IMG/VR virus record: IMGVR_UViG_3300024520_000182
Coordinates: 1-40,636 of that record
DNA length: 40,636 nucleotides
DNA from: a virus
Reading direction: 5' to 3' (one strand)
The translations under genes were made by a program, and so were the position numbers. Of the stretch, positions 1,417 to 40,636 are shown piece after piece (the stretch's first letter is position 1; each line of letters begins with the position of its first letter). The notes beneath the pieces are model-generated. The model was given only the letters and a program-made list of their open reading frames with translations. It ran no database searches and was not told the DNA's origin.

Positions 1417-2270
1417 CCAAGAAGAAAGAAGAGAAGATTAAGCCGGTCAAGAAGCAGATAACCGCGGCGAATCTGCCGATAGGCCTTGCTTCTGAACTGG
1501 CCAAGCTGCCACCGATGCCCGAGCACGGCTACAAGATCGCTGTAATCCCCGACGTGCAAGCCATGCCGGGTGTACCCATGGAGCATTTGACATGGGCCGG
1601 GCAGTATCTGTGCGAGAAGCGGCCGGACATCATTGTCTGCATTGGTGACTTCGGTGACTTCCCGTCACTGTCGCGCTGGGGACAAGGTCAAGGGTACGCA
1701 AGCTGGGAAGGGCGCCGGTACAAGGATGACCTAAACGCGTTCCACCAAGCTATGCAACTGTTTCTCACGCCCATCCGGGATGAGGCAGGCTATGACCCGA
1801 CCAAGGTATTCACGCTGGGCAACCATGAGGCCTTCATTGATCGCTTCGTCGAAGAGAATCCCATCCTTCAGGGGCATATGAGCCTCGACGATCTGAAGCT
1901 GCCCGAGTACGGCTGGCAAGTCTTCGAGTTCATGCAGCCGGTGAACATCGCGGGCACTGCCTTTTGTCACTTCTTTCCGTCCGGCATCATGGGTCGACCG
2001 ATCACCGCAGCACGCACGCTGCTGTCACGGTTGCACATGTCAGCCTTCGCGGGACATCAGCAGGGACGCATGATCGACTTCGCCAAGCGGGCCGATGGCA
2101 CTGACATGACCGCGATCATTAGCGGGTCGTTCTACCAGCACGAGTACGACTACCTGTCACCGTTCACCAATAAGCATTGGCGCGGCATGTACATGTTGCA
2201 TGAAGTCAAGGCCGGAAGCTACGACGAAATGCCGGTATCGATTGACTTCTTGCGGAGGCGTTACGGATGA
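1413..2270 (+). CDS. Calcineurin-like metallophosphoesterase
   Basis: The 285-residue protein has the metallophosphoesterase signature in order: IPDVQ (residues 45-49, where the usual second residue pair is DxH), GDFGD (78-82), GNHE (136-139), and a late AGHQQG (213-218) in place of GHxH. Together these would bind two metal ions. The first 20 residues are Lys-rich and probably disordered. GGAGG stands just before ATG 1413. The substitution of Gln for His in the first and last motifs is common in phage members and may alter metal or substrate preference, from nucleic acid to nucleotides or phosphoproteins. It lies in the nucleotide-metabolism part of the early operon. The fold is certain; the substrate is unknown. 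Confidence 0.85.
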   Translation: MTKKKEEKIKPVKKQITAANLPIGLASELAKLPPMPEHGYKIAVIPDVQAMPGVPMEHLTWAGQYLCEKRPDIIVCIGDFGDFPSLSRWGQGQGYASWEGRRYKDDLNAFHQAMQLFLTPIRDEAGYDPTKVFTLGNHEAFIDRFVEENPILQGHMSLDDLKLPEYGWQVFEFMQPVNIAGTAFCHFFPSGIMGRPITAARTLLSRLHMSAFAGHQQGRMIDFAKRADGTDMTAIISGSFYQHEYDYLSPFTNKHWRGMYMLHEVKAGSYDEMPVSIDFLRRRYG

Positions 2271-2485
2271 ATCTTGACCGATCGATACTCGCAACCTTGA
2301 TGCAGGCTCGCATCTCACAAGCACGCATCACCCAAGCCGAGTCACAAGAGATTGCGGCGGAAGAGTGGGAGGAAAACCGGCAATGGTTCGCCAGCAATTC
2401 GGCGGCGGAAGGGTCATTCTTATGGTTCTGTCAGCAGTTAGACCTTGAGCCGGGAGCCGTGCGCGAGGCTATAACCGATGGATAG
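2267..2485 (+). CDS. Hypothetical protein, 72 aa
   Basis: A small acidic, Gln/Glu-rich, probably helical protein with a central run of Ala, Ser and Glu residues and a C-terminal aromatic stretch (SFLWFCQQLDLEPG). It overlaps the phosphoesterase stop as ATGA and the next gene by eight bases. I do not recognise a family. Its place in the coupled operon is the main evidence that it is translated. Confidence 0.6.
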   Translation: MNLDRSILATLMQARISQARITQAESQEIAAEEWEENRQWFASNSAAEGSFLWFCQQLDLEPGAVREAITDG

Positions 2486-8853: not shown

Positions 8854-9053
8854 GAGACCGGGTACTATACGGATTGTGGATTCTCCTGGCGTTGCTTATG
8901 CCCGCAGCCGCAATCGTTGGGGCTGTCGCCATAAGACCGGAGCCACGGCATACCTGCACGGTCGAGATTTACCAGAGGCACAGCACCACGATAGTCGACG
9001 GGGTTTTGATATACGAAGGGCAGAAAATAATCTGCCGGATCGGGGGGAAATGA
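8850..9053 (+). CDS. Small membrane-anchored protein, 67 aa
   Basis: One N-terminal transmembrane segment (residues about 7-29, LYGLWILLALLMPAAAIVGA) is followed by about 38 residues predicted to lie outside, with two Cys (HTCTVEI and IICRIGG) that could form a disulfide. It is coupled by ATGA to the polymerase stop and to the primase-polymerase start. No family is recognised. It is one of four small membrane proteins tucked between larger genes in this genome. Confidence 0.6.
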   Translation: MRDRVLYGLWILLALLMPAAAIVGAVAIRPEPRHTCTVEIYQRHSTTIVDGVLIYEGQKIICRIGGK

Positions 9054-10903
9054 GCAGACTACAAGAAGCGTGCTTTCTGGCAAAGGAAGGCTTCGCGATC
9101 TTCCCTATCAAGGCGGGAACGAAAGCGCCCCCGCTGGTAAAGGACTGGCCCGCGCAAGCCACCACCAAACGCGCGCAGATCAATACGTGGTGGAATAAGT
9201 GGCCTGATGCGAACATAGGTATTCACTGCGAAGGCCTGCTTGTGATCGACGTGGATGTCAAGAAGGATGGCGACGCCTCGCTTGCTGCACTCGAAGCTAT
9301 TCAAGAACTACCCGATACCCTGACGACGCGCACGCCAACCGGCGGCCGTCACCTAATATATAAGCTGCCAGAGGGTCACGCAGGCGTACAGAATGGCGTG
9401 GACGTGCTGGGTAAGGGGTTGGATATCCGATCCACTCACGGCTACGTAGTGGCGCCCGGCAGTACGGTTGAGGCAGGGGGTTATACCACGAACGATTGGC
9501 GTATGGCTCCGACTCCAGCACCCGGCTGGCTTGTTCAGGAGTGCGGGACGTTCACGAAGCGTGAACATGCACCAGTTATGAACATTCCGCCCGCTGATCA
9601 GCACATCATGGACCGGGCCGAAGAGTGGCTAAAGAAAGCCGAGCGATCAGTCCAGGGTGCGGGTGGTGATGAAACGGCCTACAGGGTCGCGTGCGGCCTT
9701 CGTGACTTCGGCCTGTCTTACGCGCAAGCGTGTGACCTGATGCGCTCTGACGCGTGGGACAACGGCTGCGGGTGGCGTGCTGGCTGGCTGGAACAGAAGC
9801 CGATCGCGAGCGCCTACCGCTATGCCGCCAAGGAACCGGGCAGCAAGGTGGCAGCCGTCAGCGACTTCGAGGTCAGCGACGAGCCACCGGCTCCGGCCAA
9901 GAAGCGGGTCAGCCGCCTTGTCGGGTTCAGTGACGTGGTGGCCACGCTGCATAAGCGCTCGCCGTACTTAATTAAGAACGTCCTCTACTGCCGCACCTTC
10001 GCGCAGATGTACGGCGCACCCGGCAACGGCAAGACCTTCCTCGCGCTCGACATGGCCTTCCACATCGCCGTGGGGCGGCAGTGGAACGGCTACCCGGTCA
10101 AGCAATCACCAGTCATTTACATCGCCTTCGAGGGCATGGGCGGACTGTGGAAGCGCTTCGCCGCCATTCAGAAACACTACGGCGTGAAGGATGCACCCCT
10201 CTACCTGTTGAACGGCTCCGGCCTGGACCTGCGCAAGCCGGAAGACCGGAAGCAGTTGGGCGAAGACATCAAAACGCTCGACGTACGGCCGGGCCTGATC
10301 GTCCTCGACACGTTCGCCCGGGCCATGGCTGGCTCCGGTGGCGACGAGAACAGCGCGCAGGATGTCGGCGCCTACCTGGACGCCATAGAAGGCCTGATCG
10401 ATGCGGGCATCTGTGTCCTGCATCTGCATCACCCTGGCAAGGACTCAAGTCGCGGCGGCCGTGGATCGAGCGCAGTGTTCGGCGCCCTGGATACCGAATT
10501 CGAAATCGCTAACTTCGAAATCAAGACAACGAAACAACGTGACGTGGAACTGATCGACCCGGTTGCCTTCAAGCTGGAGCCGGTGAACCTTGGCCTCGAC
10601 GAAGACGGGGACCCGATTGTCTCTTGCGTAGTGATACCGTCCGATGGTCCGGCCGTGGTACGCACCATGCCGAAGGGTAACGCTAAGCTGGTGTGGTCTG
10701 CGCTGTGCCGCATATCACCAGACGGCGCACCGGTCAAGCGGCTCGACTTGCTTGGCGCGTGTAAGTTGTTCTTACCACAGACACGAGCACGGGCAGCGTT
10801 CGCCGAAGCACTGGATCAACTGGACAGCCGCAACATGCTCACCTATGATAACAACGTTGTCCGGCGCAAGCTGGACTTGAAAGGAAACGACGATGCGGAT
10901 TAG
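9050..10903 (+). CDS. Primase-polymerase fused to a RecA-like helicase
   Basis: The 617-residue protein combines two enzymes. Residues 1-165 are a bifunctional primase/polymerase domain: DVDV (D67, D69) and RTPTGGRH (H101) give the catalytic Asp pair and His. Residues about 300-500 are a RepA/AAA-25-type ATPase: GAPGNGKT (322-329), LIVLD (416-420) and HLHHPGKDSSRGG (458-470). Such fusions prime and unwind at phage and plasmid origins. The frame is open further upstream, but ATG 9050 overlaps the preceding TGA and lies after GGGGGGA, and the primase fold begins there. The DNA for the helicase part (about 9940-10470) uses more C-ending codons than its neighbours, hinting at a separate origin. 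Confidence 0.9.
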   Translation: MSRLQEACFLAKEGFAIFPIKAGTKAPPLVKDWPAQATTKRAQINTWWNKWPDANIGIHCEGLLVIDVDVKKDGDASLAALEAIQELPDTLTTRTPTGGRHLIYKLPEGHAGVQNGVDVLGKGLDIRSTHGYVVAPGSTVEAGGYTTNDWRMAPTPAPGWLVQECGTFTKREHAPVMNIPPADQHIMDRAEEWLKKAERSVQGAGGDETAYRVACGLRDFGLSYAQACDLMRSDAWDNGCGWRAGWLEQKPIASAYRYAAKEPGSKVAAVSDFEVSDEPPAPAKKRVSRLVGFSDVVATLHKRSPYLIKNVLYCRTFAQMYGAPGNGKTFLALDMAFHIAVGRQWNGYPVKQSPVIYIAFEGMGGLWKRFAAIQKHYGVKDAPLYLLNGSGLDLRKPEDRKQLGEDIKTLDVRPGLIVLDTFARAMAGSGGDENSAQDVGAYLDAIEGLIDAGICVLHLHHPGKDSSRGGRGSSAVFGALDTEFEIANFEIKTTKQRDVELIDPVAFKLEPVNLGLDEDGDPIVSCVVIPSDGPAVVRTMPKGNAKLVWSALCRISPDGAPVKRLDLLGACKLFLPQTRARAAFAEALDQLDSRNMLTYDNNVVRRKLDLKGNDDAD

Positions 10904-29228: not shown

Positions 29229-30237
29229 TGTCTTCCTCCGTTCCTGTTTCGTAGTTTAGTAATTCATCCATCATCGCGAGCATTTCCGCCGACTTCAATT
29301 CCTCGACGCATTTGTTATCTTCGTAGGCGCACTCGCGGAAGTCCTGAGTAAACACTAGCACCCAATGCGACTGGCACCCGGCGCACGCCAGTTCCTTCGG
29401 CCATACGTGGCGGACTTTCCAGTTGTACACGTTGTGCCGGGTGATGCCGCGGTCGTCCGGGTCCACGGATGTGATACCGTAAACGATCGGACAATCGGTC
29501 GTACCCGCAAGGTGCAGCATTCCGCCGTCCACGCCGACGATAGCTTCAGCGTTTCCAATGATGTCACGCGCTTCCATGAGAGTCGTTTTGTCTCGCATGT
29601 CTACGCACAAATCCTGTATCTGTTGCGGCATGCGTTCGAAGGTGTCCCGGACTTGAAGCGCTATGGTGTCGTGCGAAGCCTTGACGTGTGTCGTAGACTT
29701 GCCGACGACTACGACTTCGTATCCTCGCGCCCGAATCCCGACAATGACTTCCTGCATGATGCGCGGGTGGAAAATCTTGTTATCCGACGTGGCGCCGGAC
29801 GATATGACAACGTACTGTTTCGGCAGGCCGTGCATTGGTTTGACCGGCGACCAATGCGGGTAGTTCATGTCGGCCGTGGTGCGCGGGATCGTATCCAGTT
29901 GCACAACGAAGCCGAAGGTCACCAAGTCCATTTTGTTCCTGGTTACGGTGTCCTTTAGACCACAGTTCACCACGGCCGGGCCTGCCTCGGAGCGTACGTG
30001 TGTCTTCATATCGAAGGTGTGGAGTGCCTTTATCTGGATTCCCGGACCGCCGACAAGGTGCTTGACAAGGTCCATCTGGTGTTCTGGTACCCACAAGGTG
30101 AAGCCAAGGTCAAGCGAATTGATCTTGCGCGCATAGATGATCGCGGGGAGGCTGGTAATTAGATCGCCCAGCGCTGCATGCGTCATCAGAAAGTGTACGT
30201 GGTCCTCAGTACGAACCGTTGTGCCATCGCGGTACAT
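29221..30237 (-). CDS. GT9-family (heptosyltransferase-like) glycosyltransferase
   Basis: The 338-residue protein has the two-Rossmann plan of GT9 enzymes: HAALGDLITSLPAIIYARK at the start replaces the usual GDxxxxTP, then KQYVVISSGATSDNKIFHP, GYEVVVVGKST, and NAEAIVGVDGGMLHLAGTTD, the sugar-nucleotide-binding signature. A Cys-containing tail (CAGC and later Cys) is common in the family. These enzymes add heptose to lipopolysaccharide core. Start 30237 is chosen because it shares its A with the preceding stop (TAATG). Its place between portal and scaffold, next to a methyltransferase, is unusual: it may glycosylate virion protein or alter host lipopolysaccharide. Confidence 0.8.
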   Translation of the reverse strand: MYRDGTTVRTEDHVHFLMTHAALGDLITSLPAIIYARKINSLDLGFTLWVPEHQMDLVKHLVGGPGIQIKALHTFDMKTHVRSEAGPAVVNCGLKDTVTRNKMDLVTFGFVVQLDTIPRTTADMNYPHWSPVKPMHGLPKQYVVISSGATSDNKIFHPRIMQEVIVGIRARGYEVVVVGKSTTHVKASHDTIALQVRDTFERMPQQIQDLCVDMRDKTTLMEARDIIGNAEAIVGVDGGMLHLAGTTDCPIVYGITSVDPDDRGITRHNVYNWKVRHVWPKELACAGCQSHWVLVFTQDFRECAYEDNKCVEELKSAEMLAMMDELLNYETGTEEDNA

Positions 30238-30509
30238 TAGCCATCCCCTTCTGCAAAGAGTTGCCACAGTTCTTGATCATTCAGCCGGATGTGCTGCTGA
30301 ATACGGAGCCAGACTTCCCGGCGCCCCACCAGTTGATTGCGCACGGCTTCATCGGCATGGAACGTGGACGCGTTGGCCCGGCAGAATCGCGCCAAGTCGG
30401 CAAGCACCATCCTGGGAGGATACCCGTCGAACGTGCGGACGTAGTTCATGCGCCGCGTCGCGAGGTATGACTTGGCCAGTTTGATGGATGTGTTGAGGTC
30501 TACGCTCAC
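30237..30509 (-). CDS. Bbp19-like structural protein, 90 aa
   Basis: The pattern RTFDGYPPRMVLADLARFC followed by GRREVWLRIQQHIRL is that of the Bbp19 family, small proteins coded between portal and scaffold/capsid genes in many podoviruses. Its role is not well known; probably a minor head component. Coupled to both neighbours. Confidence 0.7.
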   Translation of the reverse strand: MSVDLNTSIKLAKSYLATRRMNYVRTFDGYPPRMVLADLARFCRANASTFHADEAVRNQLVGRREVWLRIQQHIRLNDQELWQLFAEGDG

Positions 30510-31273
30510 GCCGGGTCGCCCTTGTAATCCTCAATCTTGTGGACCGGTGACTTCTTTACCGGCTTTTCCTTACGGGCGAACGGTACCGGCTCACCCATGT
30601 CTAGGAAGGGCTTGACCGCCTTGACGAGAAAGCGCCACTCGATAACGACATTATTCTCGCGCATTTCCAGATCGCGCCATTCGCCATTCGTACGCTGTTC
30701 CTCGGTGATACGCTCGTCGAGGACACAATTCAAGTTACCTGCCATATCGAAATCGATACGATTGTATCTCCAGAAGGGTGTGAGTCGTCCGCCGACTGTT
30801 TCAATCATAGCGCGAAAGTTCGCCTGACAAAACATCGCGATTGTGTCCGGTGTCACTGGCATGCGGTGCGTCGGGTCGTTGAGGAAGACATTGTGGCGCG
30901 GATGCGGGATCGCAATCGAACAGACCGCGTTCGGCTTGAGGACCCGATACAGTTCCTTCATGAAGTGGAAGAATTCTTCCGTCGTCAGGTGCTCCAGGAT
31001 ATGATGGGCCAGGGTTTCATCCACCGAGTCAGTGGGGAACGGCCACGTATCGACACCGAGATTCAGGACCATGTCCGGATTTTCGGACGGCTCCATATCG
31101 ATGTTGGTCCAGCCGGGTAGCTTCTGGTGGCCACAACCTAAATTAAGCTTGCTGTGTTGATTTAGCTTGATCGTGCCACTTGACTTCATCATATTGCCAA
31201 TTAGTTTGCTTGGCTGCGACAGTGTCTGCGCGTGTTCCGCGCTCGGGGTGTTGCCGGTTTCAGGGGTGCTCAT
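30506..31273 (-). CDS. SAM-dependent methyltransferase (class I)
   Basis: The 255-residue protein has motif I LNLGCGHQKLPGW, an acidic end of strand 2 (TNIDMEPS), a motif around DETLAHHILEHL and motif LYRVLKPNAVCSIAIP, as in Methyltransf_11-type small-molecule or sugar methyltransferases. The 40 residues before motif I are low-complexity. No DNA-recognition part is seen, so it is not a typical restriction-modification enzyme. Together with the nearby GT9 enzyme it could modify a glycan. The Lys-rich C-terminus is odd and might bind a partner. It starts as ATGA on the preceding stop. Confidence 0.78.
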   Translation of the reverse strand: MSTPETGNTPSAEHAQTLSQPSKLIGNMMKSSGTIKLNQHSKLNLGCGHQKLPGWTNIDMEPSENPDMVLNLGVDTWPFPTDSVDETLAHHILEHLTTEEFFHFMKELYRVLKPNAVCSIAIPHPRHNVFLNDPTHRMPVTPDTIAMFCQANFRAMIETVGGRLTPFWRYNRIDFDMAGNLNCVLDERITEEQRTNGEWRDLEMRENNVVIEWRFLVKAVKPFLDMGEPVPFARKEKPVKKSPVHKIEDYKGDPA

Positions 31274-31770
31274 AATCTCAGTCTGTGCCCTTCTAGTTTG
31301 AAAGTGTGGTCGAACAGTTTCGAAAAGTCATCATGTAATGTAACGCTCACCCGATAGCCGGGCATCATCAAAACGAAAGGCCGAAACCGAAAATGGGCTA
31401 TTACTGTTTTCTCTTTCCCTTCCCAAATCCCGGCCCGTAATGCGGGCGTATGTTTCGCGAAGTCTCCGTTCTGTAATATCGGTTGTCCGGGTGTCACGTC
31501 CAGCACTGGTACACCCTTCGGGTCCATAAATAAAATCGAGTATCCGTTGGTCAAGGAGTTTTTCAATCCGCCGTATCGCTTCCTCTCGGGTTTGTCTTTT
31601 CCGGCTATCGTCACAGTCAACGATGATATCAGCGTTTCGTGATCGGGCGCCGAGTCGTAAAAGAATTCGGTTGGTGAGGCGTAGTCGCCAAGCGCGTCCG
31701 TTTCGCCGGATGCGGTGGACAAGTGAACGGATACGCGATCTTCGGGTCTCGGGTTGTCGAAGTATGGCAA
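31270..31770 (-). CDS. Probable virion protein, 166 aa, TTG start
   Basis: A beta-rich protein with HETLISSLTVTIAGKDKPER, KNSLTNGYSILFMDPKGVPV and FRFRPFVLMMPGYRVSV, right after the portal gene. The pattern fits a head or head-completion protein, though I do not recognise the family. An in-frame stop lies just upstream, so translation must begin at TTG 31770 or further inside; no ribosome binding site is clear, and coupling to the portal gene may help. A second frame across this region is Arg-rich and spurious. Confidence 0.65.
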   Translation of the reverse strand: MPYFDNPRPEDRVSVHLSTASGETDALGDYASPTEFFYDSAPDHETLISSLTVTIAGKDKPERKRYGGLKNSLTNGYSILFMDPKGVPVLDVTPGQPILQNGDFAKHTPALRAGIWEGKEKTVIAHFRFRPFVLMMPGYRVSVTLHDDFSKLFDHTFKLEGHRLRL

Positions 31771-31793
31771 AGGTCATGTGGGTGCGTTGTTTT

Positions 31794-33440
31794 TTATTCT
31801 GGTGATTCTTGGCCGGGTGCGGCTCCACTTTTCGCCATACCTGCCACCGCAGGTAGTGCGTCGATTGCTTGTTGCTGTGCCTCTTTTTCGGCGCGTCCTG
31901 CGCGAATCTCTTCGACTGCCTCTTCGGCACGGGTCCACTCGACCGGCGCACCGTTGATCTGCTGAATTGCTGGTACGGCGACATCAAAGTCAAACCAGTC
32001 CAGGGGCGACGCGTCACCCGTGGCCTGTACGTGTTCTAGTGTCATGGACAGCGAACGCATAAAGCCGGACGCCTTCTCGGCCTCGCGCATGCGGGACATT
32101 GGCGAATTGTACTCAATGGTATACAACATCGCTTCCGGGTCCTGCAAGATCGGCGGCAGTTCAGGTACAAGACCCTGTTGCGCGAGTAAGTCGACTTCGC
32201 GCTCGATCAAGCGTCCAAGGAATTCAGCCTGAAGGCGGCCAGCCGTTGGTGCGACGAGCATGCCCTTTTCGCGAGCGCGCTCCAGGACTTCCGTCGCGGT
32301 CATTTGCGGTGAGTCAAGTAGAATCTGAAAGAGGGTAATCAAGAACGCATCGTTAATGGTCTTGGCTTCCATTTCCATCAGTTCGAATCCGGCAGCCAAG
32401 TTCCCGGTCGGTAACGTGTCGACCATGCGCTTGCCGTCCTTGTTCAGTCCGCCCGCGTTCAGTGCGCCGGACTTCATACTAAAGCCACCCAGGTTGCCAT
32501 CGTCGTGTGAAAGCAGTACCGGTGAAAGCGTACGCTGACCCTGGATCAACGTGTCCTTTTTCTCTTGGTTGATAACCTTGATCGACGGCAATACCATCTG
32601 CGTCGGACCACGGCCGTAAATCTCGTTCGGTGCCTGCGTGTAACGCGCGATCGGGTAAGGGAACGTCCGGAAGCCGCCTTCTTGCAGCTTCACTTGCTCC
32701 GGTACGAACACATAGCAGGACTTGAAGCGCATGCCGACGTGGTCCATGCGATTAGGGTCATAGTCCCGCCGCGGCTCCACAATGTGCATTATCTCTAACT
32801 CTTCCTCCATCTGGGAAGGGTTGGCATTCTTGGAGCGCACGGACTCCGGCACGTTCGCGAATTTCTCGACCATCTGGTTCACAGACATCCGGAAAAAACG
32901 GTACGCGGTATCGATCACCCCTGCATGGTTGGGAACAAAGTAAATCTCCCCTAAGTGGATATTCTTGTATCGCAGACCTGGGGAATCATCCGGCTGGTCA
33001 ACGAACAGAATACCGTTACCATAGGCACCGATACTCGCGTACGACTGCTGAGAGTTTCCGACGAAGTTGGCGACCGGGCGATACCGGTACCGAAACAGCG
33101 CTTCGTTAAACTCTTCGTAAAATTTGCGAGCCTGCCGGTTGTTCTTGAGCATTTTATCGGCCGGTCGCAAGTGTGCCCAGAATGAATTTTGCGGCGTAAT
33201 GAGAGATTCGATTACTGCCGAAAATCGCTGGTTAGCGATAATCGCGGTTGAATCGTACGCGTCTTGGGTCTTCTTTTGCCCTTCGGACCCGTTCAGGTTG
33301 TGCGTCTGACGGGAGAAGAAAGAACCGGAATGCTCCGGGATCACCCGTCGTGCGGATTCTTCCCATTGCGTTTCCCAGTTGCCACGCTTGGAGCGCAGTT
33401 GCGCACCACGCTGGATGTAATGTCGTACGTCGTCTGACAT
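31794..33440 (-). CDS. Portal (head-to-tail connector) protein, gp8-like
   Basis: The 548-residue protein follows the T7-like portal family: NWETQWEESARRVIPEHSGS, RFSAVIESLITPQNSFWAHL, YASIGAYGNGILFVDQP, MVLPSIKVINQEKKDTLIQG, and QMTATEVLERAREKGMLVAP. These correspond to the wing, clip and stem segments. It forms the twelve-fold channel through which DNA is packaged and ejected. It starts on the preceding stop (TAATG-like overlap at 33440). Confidence 0.93.
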   Translation of the reverse strand: MSDDVRHYIQRGAQLRSKRGNWETQWEESARRVIPEHSGSFFSRQTHNLNGSEGQKKTQDAYDSTAIIANQRFSAVIESLITPQNSFWAHLRPADKMLKNNRQARKFYEEFNEALFRYRYRPVANFVGNSQQSYASIGAYGNGILFVDQPDDSPGLRYKNIHLGEIYFVPNHAGVIDTAYRFFRMSVNQMVEKFANVPESVRSKNANPSQMEEELEIMHIVEPRRDYDPNRMDHVGMRFKSCYVFVPEQVKLQEGGFRTFPYPIARYTQAPNEIYGRGPTQMVLPSIKVINQEKKDTLIQGQRTLSPVLLSHDDGNLGGFSMKSGALNAGGLNKDGKRMVDTLPTGNLAAGFELMEMEAKTINDAFLITLFQILLDSPQMTATEVLERAREKGMLVAPTAGRLQAEFLGRLIEREVDLLAQQGLVPELPPILQDPEAMLYTIEYNSPMSRMREAEKASGFMRSLSMTLEHVQATGDASPLDWFDFDVAVPAIQQINGAPVEWTRAEEAVEEIRAGRAEKEAQQQAIDALPAVAGMAKSGAAPGQESPE

Positions 33441-33766
33441 TAGCCTAGTAATTCTTGTGATGCGAATGCAGTACCGCGAGCGCGACGCTTACGTCCGGCG
33501 CGGTTCGCACTGTCCACTGTGCCGCCACCCTCTTCGCCTGTCATTACTGGGCCACTGTTGGTGATCAGCGATTCGGATGCACGCGTCGTCGGGTTGGTGA
33601 TGGGCGGTGGTGCTGCTGCGGATACCGGTGCTATGGCTGCGGCTGCGGCTCCACCGCCGTTATATGAAGTACCGCCGCGCGGCACGTACCTTGATTTTGT
33701 TTGGGCACCGCCACCCATCCATCCGGAATTTGATGTGTTGTTATTACTTCCTGAGCCGTAAGGCAT
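33440..33766 (-). CDS. Low-complexity virion-associated protein (gp7.3-like?), 108 aa
   Basis: Gly/Asn/Ser-rich and Ala/Pro-rich low-complexity sequence ends in a basic motif, NRAGRKRRARGTAFASQELL. T7 gp7.3, coded just before the portal, has a similar disordered body and basic end and helps tail assembly. The likeness is in design and position, not in detailed sequence. ACGGGGA lies before the ATG. Confidence 0.6.
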   Translation of the reverse strand: MPYGSGSNNNTSNSGWMGGGAQTKSRYVPRGGTSYNGGGAAAAAIAPVSAAAPPPITNPTTRASESLITNSGPVMTGEEGGGTVDSANRAGRKRRARGTAFASQELLG

Positions 33767-33767
33767 G

Positions 33768-33962
33768 CTATTCCCCGTTCGATTTTGCTGCGCGCATATC
33801 CATCAAGGCACGCATGCCAGGATTCGTCTGCACAAGGTTGGCCTCGGGGGCGACCGTAGATTGATTGATCGCCGTGGCGACCTTCGCTTGTCGTTCTTTA
33901 CGAACAAGGTCCGGGTCTCGCTTGTGACGATTCCCGGACCTTGGCTTTACTTCATCACGCAT
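33768..33962 (-). CDS. Hypothetical basic protein, 64 aa
   Basis: A strongly charged small protein (KPRSGNRHKRDPDLVRKERQ) with a helical C-terminus (GMRALMDMRAAKS). It fits between the FN3 gene and the low-complexity protein with gaps of only nine and one bases. No clear ribosome binding site and no family; it may bind DNA or another virion part. Confidence 0.5.
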   Translation of the reverse strand: MRDEVKPRSGNRHKRDPDLVRKERQAKVATAINQSTVAPEANLVQTNPGMRALMDMRAAKSNGE

Positions 33963-33971
33963 GTGGTGCGC

Positions 33972-34313
33972 TTAGTTCAATACCGTGGTAACGGTAATGG
34001 CCGAAAGAGAAGCCGGAACATTGATATCGACGCCAACTGACCAAGGACCTTGAACGCCATCCTTGATAGCGCGAACCCGGTGACAGTAATCGGCGTCATC
34101 CTGAACGGTGTCGACGAAACTAAGTACGTCCGCGGCCGGGCTGGCGATCGTGGTCCACGAATTGACGTTCGCCAGGGCACAAGTATTCGCGTTGCGCTGT
34201 ACTTGGTAACTGTCTTCGGAACCGGCGTCGGTCCACGAGACGGTAATGGTTTCATCAAAGGCGAAGGCGGAAAGCGAAAACAGAAAGACGGCAACAGCGG
34301 CAAGGAATCTCAT
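33972..34313 (-). CDS. Exported FN3-like domain protein, paralogue of 16809-17138
   Basis: The 113-residue product starts with a signal peptide (MRFLAAVAVFLFSLSAFA, cleavage after AFA). The mature part is one fibronectin III-like domain: VSWTDAGSEDSYQVQ, a middle turn, and DYCHRVRAIKDGVQGPW. Cys pair (NTCAL and DYCHR) as in the paralogue, and the same W-x-D-x-x-x-E-D-x-Y-x-V start. The frame is open 42 codons upstream, but the signal peptide and GGAG before ATG 34313 decide the start; the promoter at 34378-34370 leads straight to it. An exported moron expressed from its own promoter is the most likely reading. Confidence 0.75.
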   Translation of the reverse strand: MRFLAAVAVFLFSLSAFAFDETITVSWTDAGSEDSYQVQRNANTCALANVNSWTTIASPAADVLSFVDTVQDDADYCHRVRAIKDGVQGPWSVGVDINVPASLSAITVTTVLN

Positions 34314-34369
34314 GGGCGTAATCTCCGGTGATTGATGTGAGGAAAGATATCGAACTACCTTTAACACAT

Positions 34370-34378
34370 AGTATAGCA
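34370..34378 (-). promoter_or_regulatory. Extended -10 promoter before the second FN3 gene
   Basis: TGC-TATACT occupies 34378-34370 on the minus strand, with the same TGCTATACTA core as the capsid promoter. It begins three bases after the end of the large terminase gene; the start of transcription should be near 34363, giving a leader of about 50 bases to ATG 34313. Confidence 0.5.
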
Positions 34379-34380
34379 CA

Positions 34381-35964
34381 TCAGATCGTGAATTCATAGT
34401 CGCCGGTACCATGGGCGATGCGCTGCGGCCCTGGCCCATTATCCTGCGGGCGCCGTGGAGGGTTATCGACTTCGTGCGTACAAGCCAAGGAATCCATCTT
34501 ATCGGGCGAATCGACGCCGCGCTTTTTCAATTCTTCCTTGGATTCGAGTATCTTCTTGGTGTCTTCCTTGCCGCCTGACCACTTCCATTGCCGGTTGGTC
34601 GCCTCATATGATAGGCTACCCTTCTCGCCGTCGTCCATGGGGATCATGGCGCCGGGCAGCCAGTCCCGGACCTTGGCCCAGAGTCGGGTACCGTTGGTCT
34701 TGAATTCGTCGGTCTGCCCCTGGATCATGCCGAACCGGACTTCGTGCAGGATGCCGGGAAAGGGTAACTTACGTTTCAGGATGTCAATCACACCGGTACC
34801 CATCCCGAAGTCGATGCAGATGGCGTCCGGCTTGTATGCGGCGTCCAGGTCAAGCACTGCCTGCGCGATCTGGACGTTATCCTTGCCTTGCCACTCCCCG
34901 TGCGTCTTCGGGCCGCAGCAATCGCGCGCATTCCGGCCTTGCCTGAATTGCCATGTGGTCCTGCCGCGTGGAGCCGGGTCCACCCCGAGTATTAGCTTAT
35001 CGGTGCCAGGGTTGAGGGTGAGCATGTTGTGCATGGCCGTTTCCACGTTCTCCGTGGGAATGAACTGGCCTTCCTCGGTCTTCGGCGGCAATCCGTCAAT
35101 CTCGACCCGGACAAAGTCCGAATCCTCGCCGTACCTAAGTATTTGTTTGCGTATTACATTCTGGTCAATGCCTTCCATTCCCCGGGTGGACAGCGTCTCG
35201 CTATACCAGCCGGTGGCGTGGTTCTTGTCGTAGAATATGTCATGGAACCGGCCCTGACGATTCCGCATCTGCGACATGCCGAACCAGAAGCGATACGGGT
35301 TAATTTCCGTGAAGAATCCTTCAGTTACGTTCCATATGCCGTCTGGGATACCGGCTGCCTCGTCGAACATCACGCACATACCATAAGGGTTGTGCGCTCC
35401 GGCGAAGGCGTTCTCGTTGTCGGCATTCCAGGTCTGGGCGGCGCAGTACCAGTACTTCGGATCGATCCCGAGTCCACCGGCTTCGGGCGGCTGGTTCACG
35501 AGTTTCTGAAGCCAAGCGGCTGGCGTGATCCGCATCGCGTCCACTTCGAACCAATGGGCGTTTACCGAGGCGCCGAACCAGACCGCGAATTCTGGGAAGG
35601 TCTTGGCGCGCATCTGGGCCTCGGTGTTGGCTGACACGATGATGGGTGCGCCTATCCGGACGGACATGCACCAATGCGCTACCATCGCAAGCAGTGCGGT
35701 CTTGCCGGGTCCGCGGCCGGAGGACTTGCAGGACTGATACACGTCGAGCGGCAAGTCCAGGTCGTAGGCGGCGCGGTTCTCGCGGACGTGGTCCCTGATG
35801 CGTTCTAGCTCGCGCATTTGCCAGGGGCGGGGACCTTTGAATTTCTCGAATAACGTACCCTTGCGGCCCCACGGAAAACAGTACATGACGTGCTTGACCG
35901 GGTCGTCGCGGAACGAAAGAATCTTTGTTAGTATCTCTTTTTCTTGGTCGATCGTTCCACGCAT
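34381..35964 (-). CDS. Terminase large subunit
   Basis: The 527-residue packaging motor has the ATPase Walker A GRGPGKT (83-89), Walker B MCVMFDEA (D201, E202), and the nuclease domain with LILGVDPAPRG (D329), AICIDFGMGTG (D385) and SPDKMDSLACTHE (D488, D491) as metal ligands. It cuts and pumps DNA into the prohead through the portal. An Asp/Gln/Pro-rich end of about 30 residues probably docks on the portal. GAGGAAAA precedes its ATG. Confidence 0.93.
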   Translation of the reverse strand: MRGTIDQEKEILTKILSFRDDPVKHVMYCFPWGRKGTLFEKFKGPRPWQMRELERIRDHVRENRAAYDLDLPLDVYQSCKSSGRGPGKTALLAMVAHWCMSVRIGAPIIVSANTEAQMRAKTFPEFAVWFGASVNAHWFEVDAMRITPAAWLQKLVNQPPEAGGLGIDPKYWYCAAQTWNADNENAFAGAHNPYGMCVMFDEAAGIPDGIWNVTEGFFTEINPYRFWFGMSQMRNRQGRFHDIFYDKNHATGWYSETLSTRGMEGIDQNVIRKQILRYGEDSDFVRVEIDGLPPKTEEGQFIPTENVETAMHNMLTLNPGTDKLILGVDPAPRGRTTWQFRQGRNARDCCGPKTHGEWQGKDNVQIAQAVLDLDAAYKPDAICIDFGMGTGVIDILKRKLPFPGILHEVRFGMIQGQTDEFKTNGTRLWAKVRDWLPGAMIPMDDGEKGSLSYEATNRQWKWSGGKEDTKKILESKEELKKRGVDSPDKMDSLACTHEVDNPPRRPQDNGPGPQRIAHGTGDYEFTI

Positions 35965-36033
35965 TTTTTTCCTCAGTGAATCATATACTTACCCGGCCGG
36001 CAGTCGTTCTCTCCCTGGGAACGATCGTACTCA

Positions 36034-36042
36034 ATTGTATCA
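36034..36042 (-). promoter_or_regulatory. Extended -10 promoter before the large terminase
   Basis: On the minus strand TGA-TACAAT lies at 36042-36034, in a 101-base gap that otherwise holds only a hairpin (36004-36009 with 36019-36024, TCGTTC/GAACGA) in the leader of the terminase gene. No -35 matches. Same class as the sites at 38132-38124 and 28060-28052. Confidence 0.45.
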
Positions 36043-36065
36043 CATACTCTTGACACGGTTCGCAT

Positions 36066-36275
36066 CTAACCCTTTTCGTCAACCGCTGCGCGATACCGTC
36101 GATACCACGCCAACAGCTTCAGCGGATCGAACATGTACACCTTGTGCCCGGCCGCGTTCACGCACATCAGTTCACCGCGCGGGAAGCCTCCCGGTTTCTT
36201 GTCCATGACAAGATTGACGCTGACCAAGTTCGCCTCGGCTATCAAGGCCTTCTGCTGTATGTCCTGCGGTCTCAT
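36066..36275 (-). CDS. Hypothetical protein, 69 aa
   Basis: A small mixed alpha/beta protein (ANLVSVNLVMDKKPGGFPRG, then HKVYMFDPLKLLAWYRRYR). It overlaps the preceding stop as ATGA. No family is recognised; the aromatic, basic C-terminus could contact nucleic acid. Confidence 0.6.
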   Translation of the reverse strand: MRPQDIQQKALIAEANLVSVNLVMDKKPGGFPRGELMCVNAAGHKVYMFDPLKLLAWYRRYRAAVDEKG

Positions 36276-36673
36276 TCAGCACCACACGAGCAACACGGCT
36301 CGCCGTGCCACCACCAGCACTTACAGTGGAGGCCGTCTTCCGTCTTCGCGCAGGAGCCGAAGTCCGTCCGGCGTGCTTCCTGCATTACCGTATCCCGGTT
36401 CTGGCTGCACTCGTCGAACACGAGCAGCGGGCCGCGATCCTCGGCGGCCGGGTAGTCACTAGGCTGCGTAAGGTACGCTTGCCGCAGCAGTAAGTTGCGA
36501 TTCTCGGTGTACTGCCGGATGTGCGCCTCGCTGATATCGGCGCGCGGCTTGCGGGTGAAGATGGCCCGGTCCGCCAAGTACGCGAGATACAGCACAAGAG
36601 CGATGCCGCCACAGACTACAACCGTACCGCCGAGCATCAGTAATATATCAACGATTGTCCAAACAATTTCCAT
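36272..36673 (-). CDS. Membrane-anchored protein with Cys-rich tail, 133 aa
   Basis: An N-terminal membrane segment (LMLGGTVVVCGGIALVLYLA) is followed by a basic turn (FTRKPR), a helical charged middle, and a tail in which six Cys and two His cluster in the last 29 residues (FGSCAKT, then HCKCWWWHGEPCCSCG). The tail could bind zinc or another metal, or be a substrate for disulfide formation. The positive turn after the segment places the tail in the cytoplasm. GGAGG lies before the ATG. It lies between small and large terminase genes; function unknown. Confidence 0.65.
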   Translation of the reverse strand: MEIVWTIVDILLMLGGTVVVCGGIALVLYLAYLADRAIFTRKPRADISEAHIRQYTENRNLLLRQAYLTQPSDYPAAEDRGPLLVFDECSQNRDTVMQEARRTDFGSCAKTEDGLHCKCWWWHGEPCCSCGAE

Positions 36674-36703
36674 GTCACCCTCCGTGATCCGTAAGCTACC
36701 ATT

Positions 36704-37030
36704 CTACCCCAAGTCGTACATCCAAGCGTCGGATGACTTCCACTGTTGCGCATGAGCGCGTATCGCCTCGCGCCGTCGCTCCAAGACTTCGGTCGCGTTA
36801 AGCATGGGATCCGGTTCCGGCTCCACCTTCATACTGAACTGTTCAACGACGGCCATTATCTGCGGGTGCGTCGGCTGGTCGTCGAAGCGCTTCTCGTACA
36901 CCACCTTTCCGCCACCCTCCGTATATGTCAGCCACCAGCAATTCGCGGCCGGGTCCCGGTGCGTCGTAAGGAAGTCGCCGCGCTGGCCGATCCCGAGCGG
37001 AATGATACCGTCTCGCTGTTTGCCCATCAT
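36704..37030 (-). CDS. Hypothetical protein, 108 aa
   Basis: The first half is beta-rich (RGDFLTTHRDPAANCWWLTY, EGGGKVVYEKRFDD), the second half helical (NATEVLERRREAIRAHAQQW). Two adjacent ATG codons can start it; the first overlaps the preceding stop. No family recognised. Confidence 0.6.
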   Translation of the reverse strand: MMGKQRDGIIPLGIGQRGDFLTTHRDPAANCWWLTYTEGGGKVVYEKRFDDQPTHPQIMAVVEQFSMKVEPEPDPMLNATEVLERRREAIRAHAQQWKSSDAWMYDLG

Positions 37031-37335
37031 CTTGCGTATCCGTCCTTTCTGTCGTTGGTTCCAAACATCCGCATCAGTTCGTCCGCGATCAGTTTCGCGA
37101 TGCCGTTCGCGTGATCCTGTCGCAGCTTGAATATCCGGCGACGTTGCTCGACCGCGTTTCCCTTACCACCCCACATGCCGGGTGAGGCCAGCATTAGGGA
37201 GAACGGTTCGTCGCTCCACTCAAGCGGCTCCCGTAATTCGCGCATCAGGCTTTGGCTGATCGGAAGCGCCACGGTTTCGGAGCGCTCGCCGTACTGGCCG
37301 ATGTGTAACGTCAGTTCGATCGCCGGATCCCTCAT
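37027..37335 (-). CDS. Hypothetical protein, 102 aa
   Basis: A mixed protein starting MRDPAIELTLHIGQYGERSE, with a helical second half (VEQRRRIFKLRQDHANGIAK). Its start overlaps the stop of the short membrane protein upstream as ATGA. No family recognised; the chain of overlaps supports translation. Confidence 0.6.
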   Translation of the reverse strand: MRDPAIELTLHIGQYGERSETVALPISQSLMRELREPLEWSDEPFSLMLASPGMWGGKGNAVEQRRRIFKLRQDHANGIAKLIADELMRMFGTNDRKDGYAR

Positions 37336-37457
37336 GTCGGCAGGCCGCGTACGCCACGGATGAAGGTCACCAATATCCAGCCAAAGGTTACGATGGCCGT
37401 TATGAGCACCACGTTTTTCACGATAGCATCGATTGCGCAGGTCGTCACTGGGGTCAC
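37332..37457 (-). CDS. Short membrane protein, 41 aa, GTG start
   Basis: A 41-residue frame ends as ATGA on the next gene and is stopped just upstream by TAG, so it must start at GTG 37457 or a later GTG. It holds one membrane segment (NVVLITAIVTFGWILVTFI) and a basic tail. No strong ribosome binding site. The coupling and membrane segment support it; function unknown. Confidence 0.4.
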   Translation of the reverse strand: MTPVTTCAIDAIVKNVVLITAIVTFGWILVTFIRGVRGLPT

Positions 37458-37621
37458 CTATTTCGGGTTAAGATCATCATTTTATCTCAATTTTTATACC
37501 GGGTCAAGGCCGACCATCCCCTGATGGGCGATCGGCGACGAATCTTGGGGTACCCCGTCCCCCACTCCCCCCTTAAGAATCAATGACTTAGCAAACTGCG
37601 AAACGTTCGTTACGCCCCACG
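37458..37621 (-). other. Non-coding space after the small terminase, with GC palindrome and G-tracts
   Basis: No gene is seen here. It holds a short hairpin (37514-37518 with 37523-37527), the perfect palindrome GGGGTACCCC (37547-37556) and, on the minus strand, three G-tracts of four to six (37556-37553, 37563-37559, 37572-37567). An AT-rich stretch lies at 37470-37500. It could hold a packaging signal or a transcript structure. Confidence 0.35.
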
Positions 37622-38089
37622 CTACATCAATGCCGCTAGCTCTGGCACGGCTGTCGCCACGCCTTCAATCGTCAATGCCTCGTGTGCTTCGAGGCGTGCA
37701 TTAGCGTCGGCAATGATCTTGTTAAGGTCTAGCGTCTTGACATTGAAGTCTGCACGCACGCGCTGGCCATACTTGTCTGGGTCTTTCTTCTCGATCAGCC
37801 ACATTAGCCCATTGATCTTATTGCGCGCGTGTCTAGGGTCAAGGCCCGCATTAGAAATGGTGCGCCGCAATTCATCCATATCCGCCTGCGCGCTTTCCTT
37901 CATAGCATCATGGAAGGCATCCCGCGTTTGTTGCGGACTTTCACGCCTAAAAGCGTAAACCGCTGACCGGCTATATGGTTTCGACTCGCACACATCGCCA
38001 ATAGTCTGCCCATCTGCGATTGCGTCCAATATATCCAGCCAGTCGGATTCGATCGCTGCGAACGTTTCGCGGCTTATCCTTGTTGCCAT
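37622..38089 (-). CDS. Terminase small subunit
   Basis: The 155-residue protein has an N-terminal helix-turn-helix: FAAIESDWLDILDAIADGQT, then VCESKPYSRSAVYAFRRESP, the pattern of phage small terminases, followed by a helical region (KESAQADMDELRRTISNAGL) with HARNKINGLMWLIEKKDPDK, which in this family forms the oligomer. It recognises the packaging site and feeds DNA to the large subunit. An ATG at 38125 is possible, but it would lie within the -10 of the promoter at 38132-38124; AAGG before ATG 38089 favours the latter. Confidence 0.82.
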   Translation of the reverse strand: MATRISRETFAAIESDWLDILDAIADGQTIGDVCESKPYSRSAVYAFRRESPQQTRDAFHDAMKESAQADMDELRRTISNAGLDPRHARNKINGLMWLIEKKDPDKYGQRVRADFNVKTLDLNKIIADANARLEAHEALTIEGVATAVPELAALM

Positions 38090-38123
38090 TACATTACCTT
38101 CCGTGATCCTGTTTCGATAACCC

Positions 38124-38132
38124 ATTGTAGCA
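38124..38132 (-). promoter_or_regulatory. Extended -10 promoter starting the late block
   Basis: TGC-TACAAT on the minus strand at 38132-38124 has five of six -10 matches and the extended TG. No -35 is visible. Transcription would start near 38117, 28 bases before ATG 38089. The first CGTACG palindrome (38138-38143) lies directly upstream, where a bound protein could act as activator or repressor. Confidence 0.5.
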
Positions 38133-38137
38133 TCTGC

Positions 38138-38406
38138 CGTACGACGTAACCCTTACAGGGGTTACGCGTCGAATCGTACGTTTTCCGTACGCTGTTGATA
38201 GGTTAGCGCCTGCTTACCTGCAAACTGAAGCCTAGAGCCGATCCACGTTTTACAGCGTACGGCAAACGTACGGCAAACGTACGAAAAGCGTACGAATCCC
38301 ACGATACGAAAATCGTACGGTCAGCGTACGCTAACCTGCAAAGCTAGCATAGGCCTCAAACAGGCGTACGATTTTTGAAGCCGTTTTTCAGACCCTAAAT
38401 CGTACG
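38138..38406 (+). repeat. Array of eleven CGTACG palindromes (iteron-like)
   Basis: CGTACG occurs at 38138, 38175, 38186, 38256, 38267, 38278, 38289, 38314, 38325, 38365 and 38401. Five of the ten steps are exactly 11 bp, about one helical turn, so the sites face the same side of the DNA. In the core the unit is CGTACGGCAAA or CGTACGAAAAG, so A-runs alternate with the palindromes and may add bending. A worn copy lies near 38302. A twelfth CGTACG is in the first codons of the next gene (38567). A helix-phased array between divergent promoters suggests cooperative binding of a phage protein: an origin initiator or a master regulator. Confidence 0.9.
38145..38166. repeat. Inverted repeat beside the iteron array
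   Basis: CGTAACCC (38145-38152) and GGGTTACG (38159-38166) are perfect complements separated by six bases. It could be a protein-binding dyad or, in RNA, a hairpin; there is no T run, so not a terminator. It sits between the first and second CGTACG. Confidence 0.6.
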
Positions 38407-38463
38407 CTTAATAAATAGGCAGTGACAAATAGACCACCATCAAATCAACGACTTGCCAAATAC

Positions 38464-38472
38464 TTATCCACA
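38464..38472 (+). other. Perfect DnaA box
   Basis: TTATCCACA matches the DnaA box consensus exactly. It lies 58 bases after the last CGTACG, beyond an AT-rich stretch (38395-38463). The combination of iterons, AT-rich DNA and DnaA box is the classic make-up of a plasmid or phage origin. A single box can occur by chance. Confidence 0.5.
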
Positions 38473-38487
38473 ATGCGCCAAAAAGGC

Positions 38488-38515
38488 TTGACGGCATGAC
38501 CCCAGTGCCTGTAAA
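38488..38515 (+). promoter_or_regulatory. Candidate sigma-70 promoter of the right-hand early genes
   Basis: TTGACG (38488-38493, five of six) is followed after 16 bp by TGTAAA (38510-38515, four of six). Transcription would start near 38522, about 40 bases before ATG 38561. The match is fair, and the position between the array and the first plus-strand gene is right. Confidence 0.4.
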
Positions 38516-38560
38516 GTTCGCTTTATCGGATACGCAAACACACACGAAGGGGAACACAAC

Positions 38561-38746
38561 ATGAGTCGTACGTACAAAGAAGCCGCAGCAAACATCAAAG
38601 CCTGCAATTGCTCGTCCGGATGGATTCAGCGCGCGCTTGTTGATCTTGAGGACCGCGATTGTGTCGACGCCTATTATGATGCGCTCGCACTGGCTGCACT
38701 CGCCAAGCGCCGCATGGACGAAGCACTGAACAAGGGGATATCATGA
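38561..38746 (+). CDS. Hypothetical early protein, 61 aa
   Basis: A small helical protein with a Cys pair (IKACNCSSGW) and ALALAALAKRRMDEALN at the end. GAAGGGGA stands before the ATG. It contains a twelfth CGTACG in its first codons. Coupled to the next gene by ATGA. Unknown function; small first genes of phages often act on host proteins. Confidence 0.6.
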   Translation: MSRTYKEAAANIKACNCSSGWIQRALVDLEDRDCVDAYYDALALAALAKRRMDEALNKGIS

Positions 38747-39060
38747 TCACCATAGACTTCACATTCCAAACAGTGACACCAGAGTCAGCAGAATGCGGCG
38801 ACTTTGACAGTCATGGTTTCATCACACCCGGACACTGTAAATACTCGGCAGAGCAATACGACGAACGCCAACAGTGGAAACAAGGTGATTTAGCCCACTA
38901 CGTCCAGTTTGCGCAAGAGCTAGGCATTCAGTCTGACGGGTTATGCTCTGTCGACTCGGACATCGACTACCGAAGCGGCGAAGAGACAACGCACTCAATG
39001 CATATCGAAGGCGCAACACCTAGCACGCAAGCACGCATTGCGCGTTTGCTCGACAACTAA
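38743..39060 (+). CDS. Hypothetical early protein, 105 aa
   Basis: The acidic product begins MITIDFTFQTVTPESAECGD and contains SHGFITPGHCKYSAEQYDE, DLAHYVQFAQELG and DIDYRSGEETTHSMHIEG. Three Cys and four His are present, but in no known zinc pattern. I do not recognise the family. Starts on the preceding stop. Confidence 0.65.
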   Translation: MITIDFTFQTVTPESAECGDFDSHGFITPGHCKYSAEQYDERQQWKQGDLAHYVQFAQELGIQSDGLCSVDSDIDYRSGEETTHSMHIEGATPSTQARIARLLDN

Positions 39061-39071
39061 AGGAGGTCGTC

Positions 39072-39323
39072 ATGACAGTCAACTGGGAATCACTCGCGAT
39101 CACCGAGCAAGAGCGCGCATACTCAACGGCGTACGCTGAACACGCGCCACGATATCGCACCATATGGCGCAATCGCGATGTGAAAGAGTGCCGAGGCGCA
39201 CTGCGCGACATTCACGAAACGTTAGCAATCCACTCAGGCCCTAGCGAGTATACGGGGAAACTGTGGGCGGAACTGGACGCGATACGTGACCGCGTCATCA
39301 TCTTACAACGGAAAGGGGAATAG
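39072..39323 (+). CDS. Hypothetical early protein, 83 aa
   Basis: A helical, charged protein (ITEQERAYSTAYAEHAPRYR, then REVK-like and AELDAIRDRVIILQ). AGGAGG lies before its ATG, the strongest ribosome binding site of this block. No family recognised. Confidence 0.65.
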   Translation: MTVNWESLAITEQERAYSTAYAEHAPRYRTIWRNRDVKECRGALRDIHETLAIHSGPSEYTGKLWAELDAIRDRVIILQRKGE

Positions 39324-39324
39324 C

Positions 39325-39654
39325 ATGACACAGCATTATAGCGACGAATCAAGAACCGAGGACACATGGTCCTTGCCTGACGTCGAGACGTTTCAGCTAA
39401 CTGCACTGGAGGTAGCAGAATCAGACCGATACGAAGATGAACACTGGGAGTTCATGAAGCGGCACGAATTCAGGTTAGCGGACATGAACAGCAAAACACG
39501 CGAGGCGATGTTAGACGCCATGGTTGACGAACTAGCGATCGAAGGCGGGTGGTTCTGGTGGACATGTTTTCCGGGTTGTATGCCTGATTCGTCGCCGACG
39601 GGACCGTTCACTACCGAAGCGGAAGCTGTCGCCGATGCCCGCGATTTTGATTGA
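39325..39654 (+). CDS. WWTC-PGC motif protein 1, 109 aa
   Basis: The first 70 residues are acidic and helical. The C-terminal part holds GGWFWWTCFPGCMPDSSP and then TGPFTTEAEAVADARD, nearly the same as the next gene. Two Cys, four aromatic residues and a Pro-Gly turn suggest a small fold or metal site. The frame is open 13 codons upstream, but AAAGGGGA before ATG 39325 decides the start. The same motif is found in unassigned proteins of other phages and plasmids, to my knowledge without a function. Confidence 0.7.
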   Translation: MTQHYSDESRTEDTWSLPDVETFQLTALEVAESDRYEDEHWEFMKRHEFRLADMNSKTREAMLDAMVDELAIEGGWFWWTCFPGCMPDSSPTGPFTTEAEAVADARDFD

Positions 39655-39668
39655 AAGGGGAATAAATC

Positions 39669-39965
39669 ATGGAATTTCACTTCGAAACGTTCTTTGTCTC
39701 ATGGCGTGATTTTGCTGAGGCCTCAGTCGACACTTGGCAAGGGGAGCGCATGGCAGAGACGACCGAGTCATGTAATTGGCTATCCGAAGCGGAATCATTG
39801 CAGGGTTGGTATTGGTGGACGTGTCAACCTGGCTGCCTGCCTGATAGTGAAGCGGACGGGCCGTACGGGTCCGCGCAAGACGCGGTCCGGGTCGCTACTG
39901 ATGGTTTAGTTCAATCGCGCGATGAAAGCGGCCGCTTTACCGGAGTGTATGAATTCTCCGAATAA
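39669..39965 (+). CDS. WWTC-PGC motif protein 2, 98 aa
   Basis: A paralogue of the preceding gene: QGWYWWTCQPGCLPDSEA is followed by DGPYGSAQDAVRVATDG. The N-terminal 50 residues differ from those of its partner, so the shared unit of about 32 residues is a module joined to different partners. AAAGGGGA precedes the ATG. Unknown function. Confidence 0.7.
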   Translation: MEFHFETFFVSWRDFAEASVDTWQGERMAETTESCNWLSEAESLQGWYWWTCQPGCLPDSEADGPYGSAQDAVRVATDGLVQSRDESGRFTGVYEFSE

Positions 39966-39982
39966 AGTAATTGAAATAGTTC

Positions 39983-40011
39983 TTGACACCCGGAATCCAT
40001 GAGCGTATATT
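39983..40011 (+). promoter_or_regulatory. Strong sigma-70 promoter before the ArdC-like gene
   Basis: TTGACA (39983-39988) is a perfect -35 and TATATT (40006-40011) a five-of-six -10, with the ideal 17-bp spacer. The transcript would start near 40018 with a 40-base leader. This is the closest match to the host consensus in the window and suggests expression right after entry. Confidence 0.7.
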
Positions 40012-40057
40012 TCGGGTTGTTCTATCGCACTACATCTTAACTGATACGGGGAACCAC

Positions 40058-40636
40058 ATGGCCACAGCCACCAAAAAAGCCAAGCGCGATATCTACGCTG
40101 AAACCACAGCCGCGATGATCACGCTTCTTGAGGGCGACAAACTCGGAAATTGGAAAGCATCATGGAACCGCACGACATCGCGCGGAATGCCAGTCAAGCA
40201 CGACGGCAAAGCGTACAGGGGCGTTAACGTTCTGATGCTTTGGTGCGCACAGCAAGACAACGGATTCAAGTCTAACTGCTGGATGACATATCGTCAGGCA
40301 GAGACGTACGGCGGGAACGTGATCAAAGGCGAGCGTAGCAAAGCGCGATCGATCTTGTTCAAGCCGTTCACCAAAGGCGAGAAGCAAGAAGGCGGCGAAG
40401 TGAAAGAGAAAAGCTTTTTAATGATCCGCGATTATGCCGTGTTCAACGTTGATCAAATCGAAAACCTGCCAGGGCGATTCTACGCCAGCATCACGCCGTC
40501 GGCCGGATTCGTGAATCCTGATGAGCGCACAGATAGAATAGACGAGTGGTTCGAAAATCTCGGCATGGATTTACAGCATGGCGGCGATCGTGCATTTTTC
40601 CGGCCGTCGACCGATCAGGTACAAATGCCAAACTTT
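40058..40636 (+). CDS. ArdC-like antirestriction protein, cut by the right edge
   Basis: The first 193 residues fit the ArdC N-terminal domain (ssDNA-binding, DUF1738): DIYAETTAAMITLLEGDKLG, WKASWNRTTSRGMPVKHDGK, YRGVNVLMLWCA, WMTYRQAETYGGNVIKGER, and KSFLMIRDYAVFNVDQIENL. The metallopeptidase-like C-terminal domain should follow after the window edge. ArdC proteins protect incoming DNA against host restriction enzymes. A consensus promoter directly upstream and GGGGA before the ATG fit immediate early expression. Confidence 0.85.
   Translation, partial: MATATKKAKRDIYAETTAAMITLLEGDKLGNWKASWNRTTSRGMPVKHDGKAYRGVNVLMLWCAQQDNGFKSNCWMTYRQAETYGGNVIKGERSKARSILFKPFTKGEKQEGGEVKEKSFLMIRDYAVFNVDQIENLPGRFYASITPSAGFVNPDERTDRIDEWFENLGMDLQHGGDRAFFRPSTDQVQMPNF

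Follow-up and report, generated by a model that had tools for sequence, protein, structure and literature searches.

An array of eleven CGTACG palindromes lies between the leftward TerS gene and the divergent rightward early operon of an uncultivated podovirus, and the position and architecture of the array are kept across relatives while the recognition word is exchanged. Within a genome, a common unit is present at two terminase genes; between genomes, the units differ. Our preferred reading, which we hold tentatively and at somewhat less than an even chance, is that the array serves as an operator with many sites, belonging to a module for terminase and early-late control.

The window analyzed is an entire virus record of 40,636 bp. 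No end repeat was found in the record, and positions 30000-40636 have no DNA-level similarity to phages in the annotated collection. The copies of CGTACG start at positions 38138, 38175, 38186, 38256, 38267, 38278, 38289, 38314, 38325, 38365, and 38401, with steps of 37, 11, 70, 11, 11, 11, 25, 11, 40, and 36 bp. The initial annotation described eleven sites in 269 bp at the late/early divergence with half of the steps at 11 bp, and both the coordinates and the spacing (five of the ten steps) are reproduced. Across 2000 shuffles that preserve the dinucleotides of the 435-bp intergenic region, CGTACG averages 0.39 copies and never exceeds three, in agreement with the earlier estimate of well under one copy by chance, and the commonest 6-mer of any kind reaches at most 8 copies, as compared with the 11 observed. 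The whole record contains 35 copies of CGTACG versus 15 expected, an approximately two-fold excess. An equal density elsewhere had been named as a possible refutation, and the count reveals no second cluster: the array is the single cluster of at least three copies in the record. Other 6-mers reach at most five copies per 269-bp stretch anywhere in the record.

Table 1 Features of the window, with positions, strands, and the basis of each assignment
Feature	Position	Strand	Basis
72-aa early protein, candidate reader	2267..2485	+	Predicted C-terminal helix-turn-helix, modest confidence
PrimPol (ORF904-like) fused to RSF1010-RepA-type helicase, candidate reader	8876..10903	+	Family matches and structure prediction
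Exact IHF consensus AATCAATGACTTA, 3' side of TerS	37578..37590	+	Consensus match
TerS, terminase small subunit (Sf6_terminase, PF20901)	37622..38089	-	Start set by alignment with relatives
TACAAT -10-like hexamer, putative TerS promoter	38124..38129	-	Read by eye
Hairpin, TerS-proximal end of the array	38138..38171	-	Perfect 8-bp core stem 38145-38166 (CGTAACCCCTGTAAGGGTTACG)
CGTACG array, 11 copies	38138..38406	.	6-mer positions and shuffles
Exact IHF consensus AATCAACGACTTG, early side of the array	38443..38455	+	Position conserved in relatives
TTATCCACA, DnaA-box consensus	38464..38472	+	Exact; not conserved as part of the module
Putative early promoter TTGACG-18-TAAAGT	38488..38517	+	Weak
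Start of the early operon	38561..40636	+	Small genes of unknown function, followed by an ArdC-like antirestriction gene that the record end truncates

The array is accompanied by a hairpin and an exact IHF consensus, both of which the initial annotation missed. The hairpin folds with z = -3.7 for positions 38132-38198. The record contains only three exact IHF consensus sites, and TerS is flanked by IHF-type sites on both sides. The longest ORF of TerS starts at 38125, and the late genes lie beyond TerS. The first palindrome was said to abut the late promoter, and it is positioned 9-14 bp upstream of the TACAAT hexamer; the DnaA box, described as perfect, has no other exact copy in the window. 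Promoter-like sites number 2, as compared with 1.0 in shuffles, so the call of an early promoter is weak. Elsewhere in the window, the overlapping ORFs at 4421-4873 and 4693-5535 are consecutive halves of one exonuclease (phrog_69, DUF2800), indicating that the gene is frameshifted or is split by a sequencing error.

The clade loci were gathered by portal- and TerL-based scans, and their TerL proteins are mostly 51-63% identical. IMG/VR scans with the single proteins PrimPol and TerL and a TerL search of GTDB genomes yielded no relatives, and the TerS alignment is too variable to serve as a scan query. A scan for the exact triplet of CGTACG at 11-bp steps was dropped: the triplet is present in 14 IMG/VR stretches, mostly within genes and outside the clade, as compared with 30 for the control palindrome GCATGC. 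Because the triplet is rarer than the control, an iteron of CGTACG at 11-bp intervals is not widespread among viruses; the unit is one specificity among several. Some of these loci (L005/L008, L013/L014, and L007), which are unrelated to the clade, have runs of three or four CGTACG spaced by 11 bp within genes that we take to resemble phage replication initiators.

Directly 5' of TerS, the relatives carry arrays of ACCGTA (L022, L107, L108, L109), ATCCGG/ACCGGA (L026, L027, L126, L103, L105), CGGACA/GGACGA (L029, L115, L118, L124, L127), or AGCGGA (L121), and CGTACG in L102 only. Six loci (L036, L123, L130, L132, L032, and L119) have no clear array 5' of TerS. L036, whose TerS is 94% identical to that of L022, had been regarded as a genome lacking the ACCGTA unit; this was withdrawn when an ACCGTAA cluster was found before its TerL. 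Apparent arrays in L047, L049, L074, and L091 were rejected because they lie inside repetitive coding genes. Pooled over 18 arrays, the distances between sites of the same orientation show a 10.5-bp periodicity, with a mean cosine of 0.296 versus 0.007 ± 0.056 for random placement (2000 trials, maximum 0.193); in this test and in the permutation tests, the relatives share ancestry and the genomes are not fully independent. Of the conservation that the initial annotation proposed to check in relatives, the helix-phased spacing is present, but the CGTACG unit is replaced by other words.

A strong hairpin is present within 200 bp 5' of TerS in nearly all loci (mean score 8.2 versus 5.0), and in many relatives it has an apex such as CCCTATAGGG or CCTGTAAGG. 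By reading, the hairpins of L022, L107, and L109 differ by two-sided changes of the outer and apical stem pairs. The distance between the hairpin and the ATG varies from about 38 to 180 bp. In most relatives, a TANNNT -10-like hexamer is positioned only 11-12 nt before the TerS ATG, which suggests that the TerS transcripts are leaderless; the TerS of the window differs in this respect and likely has a 5' UTR. The exact IHF consensus is present upstream of TerS in 14 of 27 regions (0.45 expected) and downstream of TerS in 15 of 27 (0.17 expected). Its four free positions are biased (TGAC, TGGG, CGAC, and similar), so IHF binding may not be all that the motif encodes.

Several other elements were observed in these loci. 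Relatives such as L022 (2141), L107 (4830), and L164 (10687) have, 3' of TerS and adjoining an IHF-type site, a conserved noncoding element that ends in TTATGTCAAAT and is possibly the true packaging site. In G002, G003, and G004, the early side is separated from the TerS hairpin by an unknown gene of ~120 aa (L158 6661-7023, L164 9541-9909, L161 11643-12011); that of L158 and L164 has no Pfam family match. In L102, tandem genes with variable AEYERVKA/ASAEAEYQRV repeats (88-2154) are located just upstream of the array. G002, G004, and G006 have an early-region cluster of CGATTACC-type repeats, at least partly coding (L158 about 3985-4620, L170 4081-4500, L164 about 7736).

In many relatives, the TerS-side unit recurs, together with a hairpin, before the TerL or HNH gene. 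The second arrays before TerL/HNH consist of CGTACG in L102, ACCGTA in L107 and L109, TCCGG in L026, GTCCG in L029 and L115, and CATCCG in L103 and L106; L110 has an ACCGTA array before TerL. The TerS-side unit is more frequent on the TerL side of its own genome than on that of other genomes (2.33 versus 1.07, permutation p = 5e-5). In the two whole relatives G001 and G006, clusters of ACCGTAA are present at TerS and TerL (8+3 and 5+3 copies, respectively), and every copy outside these clusters is single. One motif at several promoters of a genome, as expected of a regulon, is hence seen in relatives; the window has it in one place only, the TerS side, and its TerL promoter has no CGTACG array. 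Since one unit is located upstream of several genes and is swapped as a set between genomes, the arrangement points to a regulator and its operators rather than to a unique origin. Of the two functions offered in the initial annotation, singly or combined, control by a master switch is the better supported and an initiator-bound origin less so, because the unit is repeated at TerS and TerL/HNH in relatives.

In the operator reading, a sequence-specific phage protein would bind the helix-phased units along a single face of the helix, in the interval that separates TerS from the early operon, and IHF would probably bend the DNA at the array. The resulting nucleoprotein complex would govern the TerS (late) promoter and perhaps also the divergent early promoter, and in many relatives the same protein would serve the second array before the TerL/HNH gene. 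We infer the binding of both proteins, the control of transcription, and its direction from sequence. Against this reading, the hairpin-to-ATG distance varies, which is loose for a classical activator; the window TerL and the TerS of several relatives have no array; and the hairpin, the IHF site, and PrimPol are also compatible with an origin. A likeness is the phi29 early/late switch, whose A2b/A2c-A3 region is bound by p4 and p6: a specific phage protein acts at early and late promoters jointly, and A-tracts aid recognition (PMC3100819). A specific phage protein acting jointly at early and late promoters is what we propose here, whereas an 11-site palindrome array is not described for the phi29 region. 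Pfam and PHROGs scans of most early proteins found no p4 or p6 homologue.

No cognate reader and no recognizable repressor or activator was identified in the window. The specificity of the reader appears to drift between genomes. One candidate is the PrimPol/helicase, which matches pRN1 ORF904 and RSF1010 RepA. Its whole model is of low confidence; the C-terminal domain is the best part, with a predicted winged helix at about residues 600-665 (H-H-H-E-E, pLDDT about 75-87). Another candidate is the 72-aa early protein, which is present in all five PrimPol-bearing relatives examined whole. PDB fold searches with both models gave no significant match.

If PrimPol were the reader, the locus could be a replication origin, in which the units are iterons for its winged helix, IHF and the AT-rich early side aid melting, and the hairpin is a single-strand initiation site. 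We consider this unlikely, though well worth keeping in view. The array does have helically spaced direct repeats, as expected of an iteron origin, and precedents exist: pRN1 replication requires a stem-loop, and the RSF1010 origin combines iterons with ssiA/ssiB hairpins, in both cases iterons and/or stem-loops with a PrimPol and a RepA-type or SF3 helicase (PMC4234260). The arrays here differ from these in lying at late genes and in that they may occur twice, and no RepC homologue was found. G001, G002, and G006 have very similar PrimPol C-termini and a common ACCGTA unit, but this agreement is confounded by ancestry. The DnaA-box consensus TTATNCACA is present in 4 of 27 regions, the window included (0.3 expected); a conserved DnaA box, which is a common but not universal trait of origins, is not seen. 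The cumulative GC skew, proposed earlier as a check for an origin, has no sharp flip at the array. An iteron origin is expected to be one unique site serving the initiator gene, but G001 and G006 have two clusters of the same unit, both at terminase genes, and the single cluster of the window is far from the PrimPol gene. The array keeps to TerS/TerL and does not follow the PrimPol gene.

The arrays and IHF consensus sites on either side of TerS, where a packaging site would be expected, could instead form a cosB- or pac-like region for TerS. Lambda cosB likewise combines short repeated sites, the R sites, with an IHF site adjoining TerS; here, in contrast, the unit does not track TerS and the hairpin is on the TerS side. 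In lambda-like phages, cleavage takes place at cos, which spans roughly 200 bp and comprises several subsites (PMC4669245). At a cos or pac site, the specificity is expected to follow the DNA-binding domain of TerS, but array similarity does not correlate with how alike the HTH regions of TerS are (Mantel rho 0.07, p 0.26), and correlates with whole-TerS identity at rho 0.21 (p 0.045). The window and L102 have the common CGTACG unit with TerS proteins 34% identical, and L022 and L107 have the common ACCGTA unit with HTHs 40% identical and TerL proteins 95% identical. Because the unit does not track its HTH, TerS is disfavored as the reader and is probably not the reader. Contig ends show no clear pile-up marking genome termini. 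We judge a packaging site improbable. Lower still, to the point of being very improbable, we place a passive repeat, in which a low-complexity or host-driven motif has expanded locally and has no phage reader: the unit is not conserved, CGTACG is in excess record-wide, and the 11-bp triplet is no commoner in viral contigs than the control palindrome, but the position, phasing, and hairpin are conserved and a common unit is present at two sites per genome.

Similar elements are present in cultured phages whose portal proteins are related. Unannotated intergenic nested hairpins lie 5' of the TerS operon in Burkholderia phage BcepC6B (record positions 1-110, z -7.4) and in Bordetella phage BPP-1 (about 26607-26711, z -10.1). 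As in the clade, the hairpin is strong and its arms contain repeated units; in contrast, there are two units per arm and no long array, the units are others (ACGATAGGG-type and GCCTCGTTT), and the PrimPol gene adjoins or is near the element. Berkner et al. proposed a stem-loop at the 3' end of the BIP-1/BPP-1 PrimPol gene as an origin, and this is a separate structure, about 450 bp from the BPP-1 element (PMC4234260). A broader proposal, which we think doubtful as a whole, is that a podovirus lineage including BPP-1 and BcepC6B has a terminase-linked hairpin and array whose word changes between a small number of specificity classes (CGTACG, ACCGTA, ATCCGG, GTCCG, and others), largely independently of TerL/TerS descent. 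As with immunity groups, one fast-evolving protein would link the terminase genes to early/late switching, possibly to replication as well, and would separate co-infecting phages.

These results define by sequence a probable control locus for a large group of uncultivated podoviruses and caution that such arrays should not be called origins from a single genome. The recognition word turns over while the architecture persists. The reader can therefore be searched for by co-variation, and early/late switching is testable in cultured BPP-1 and BcepC6B.
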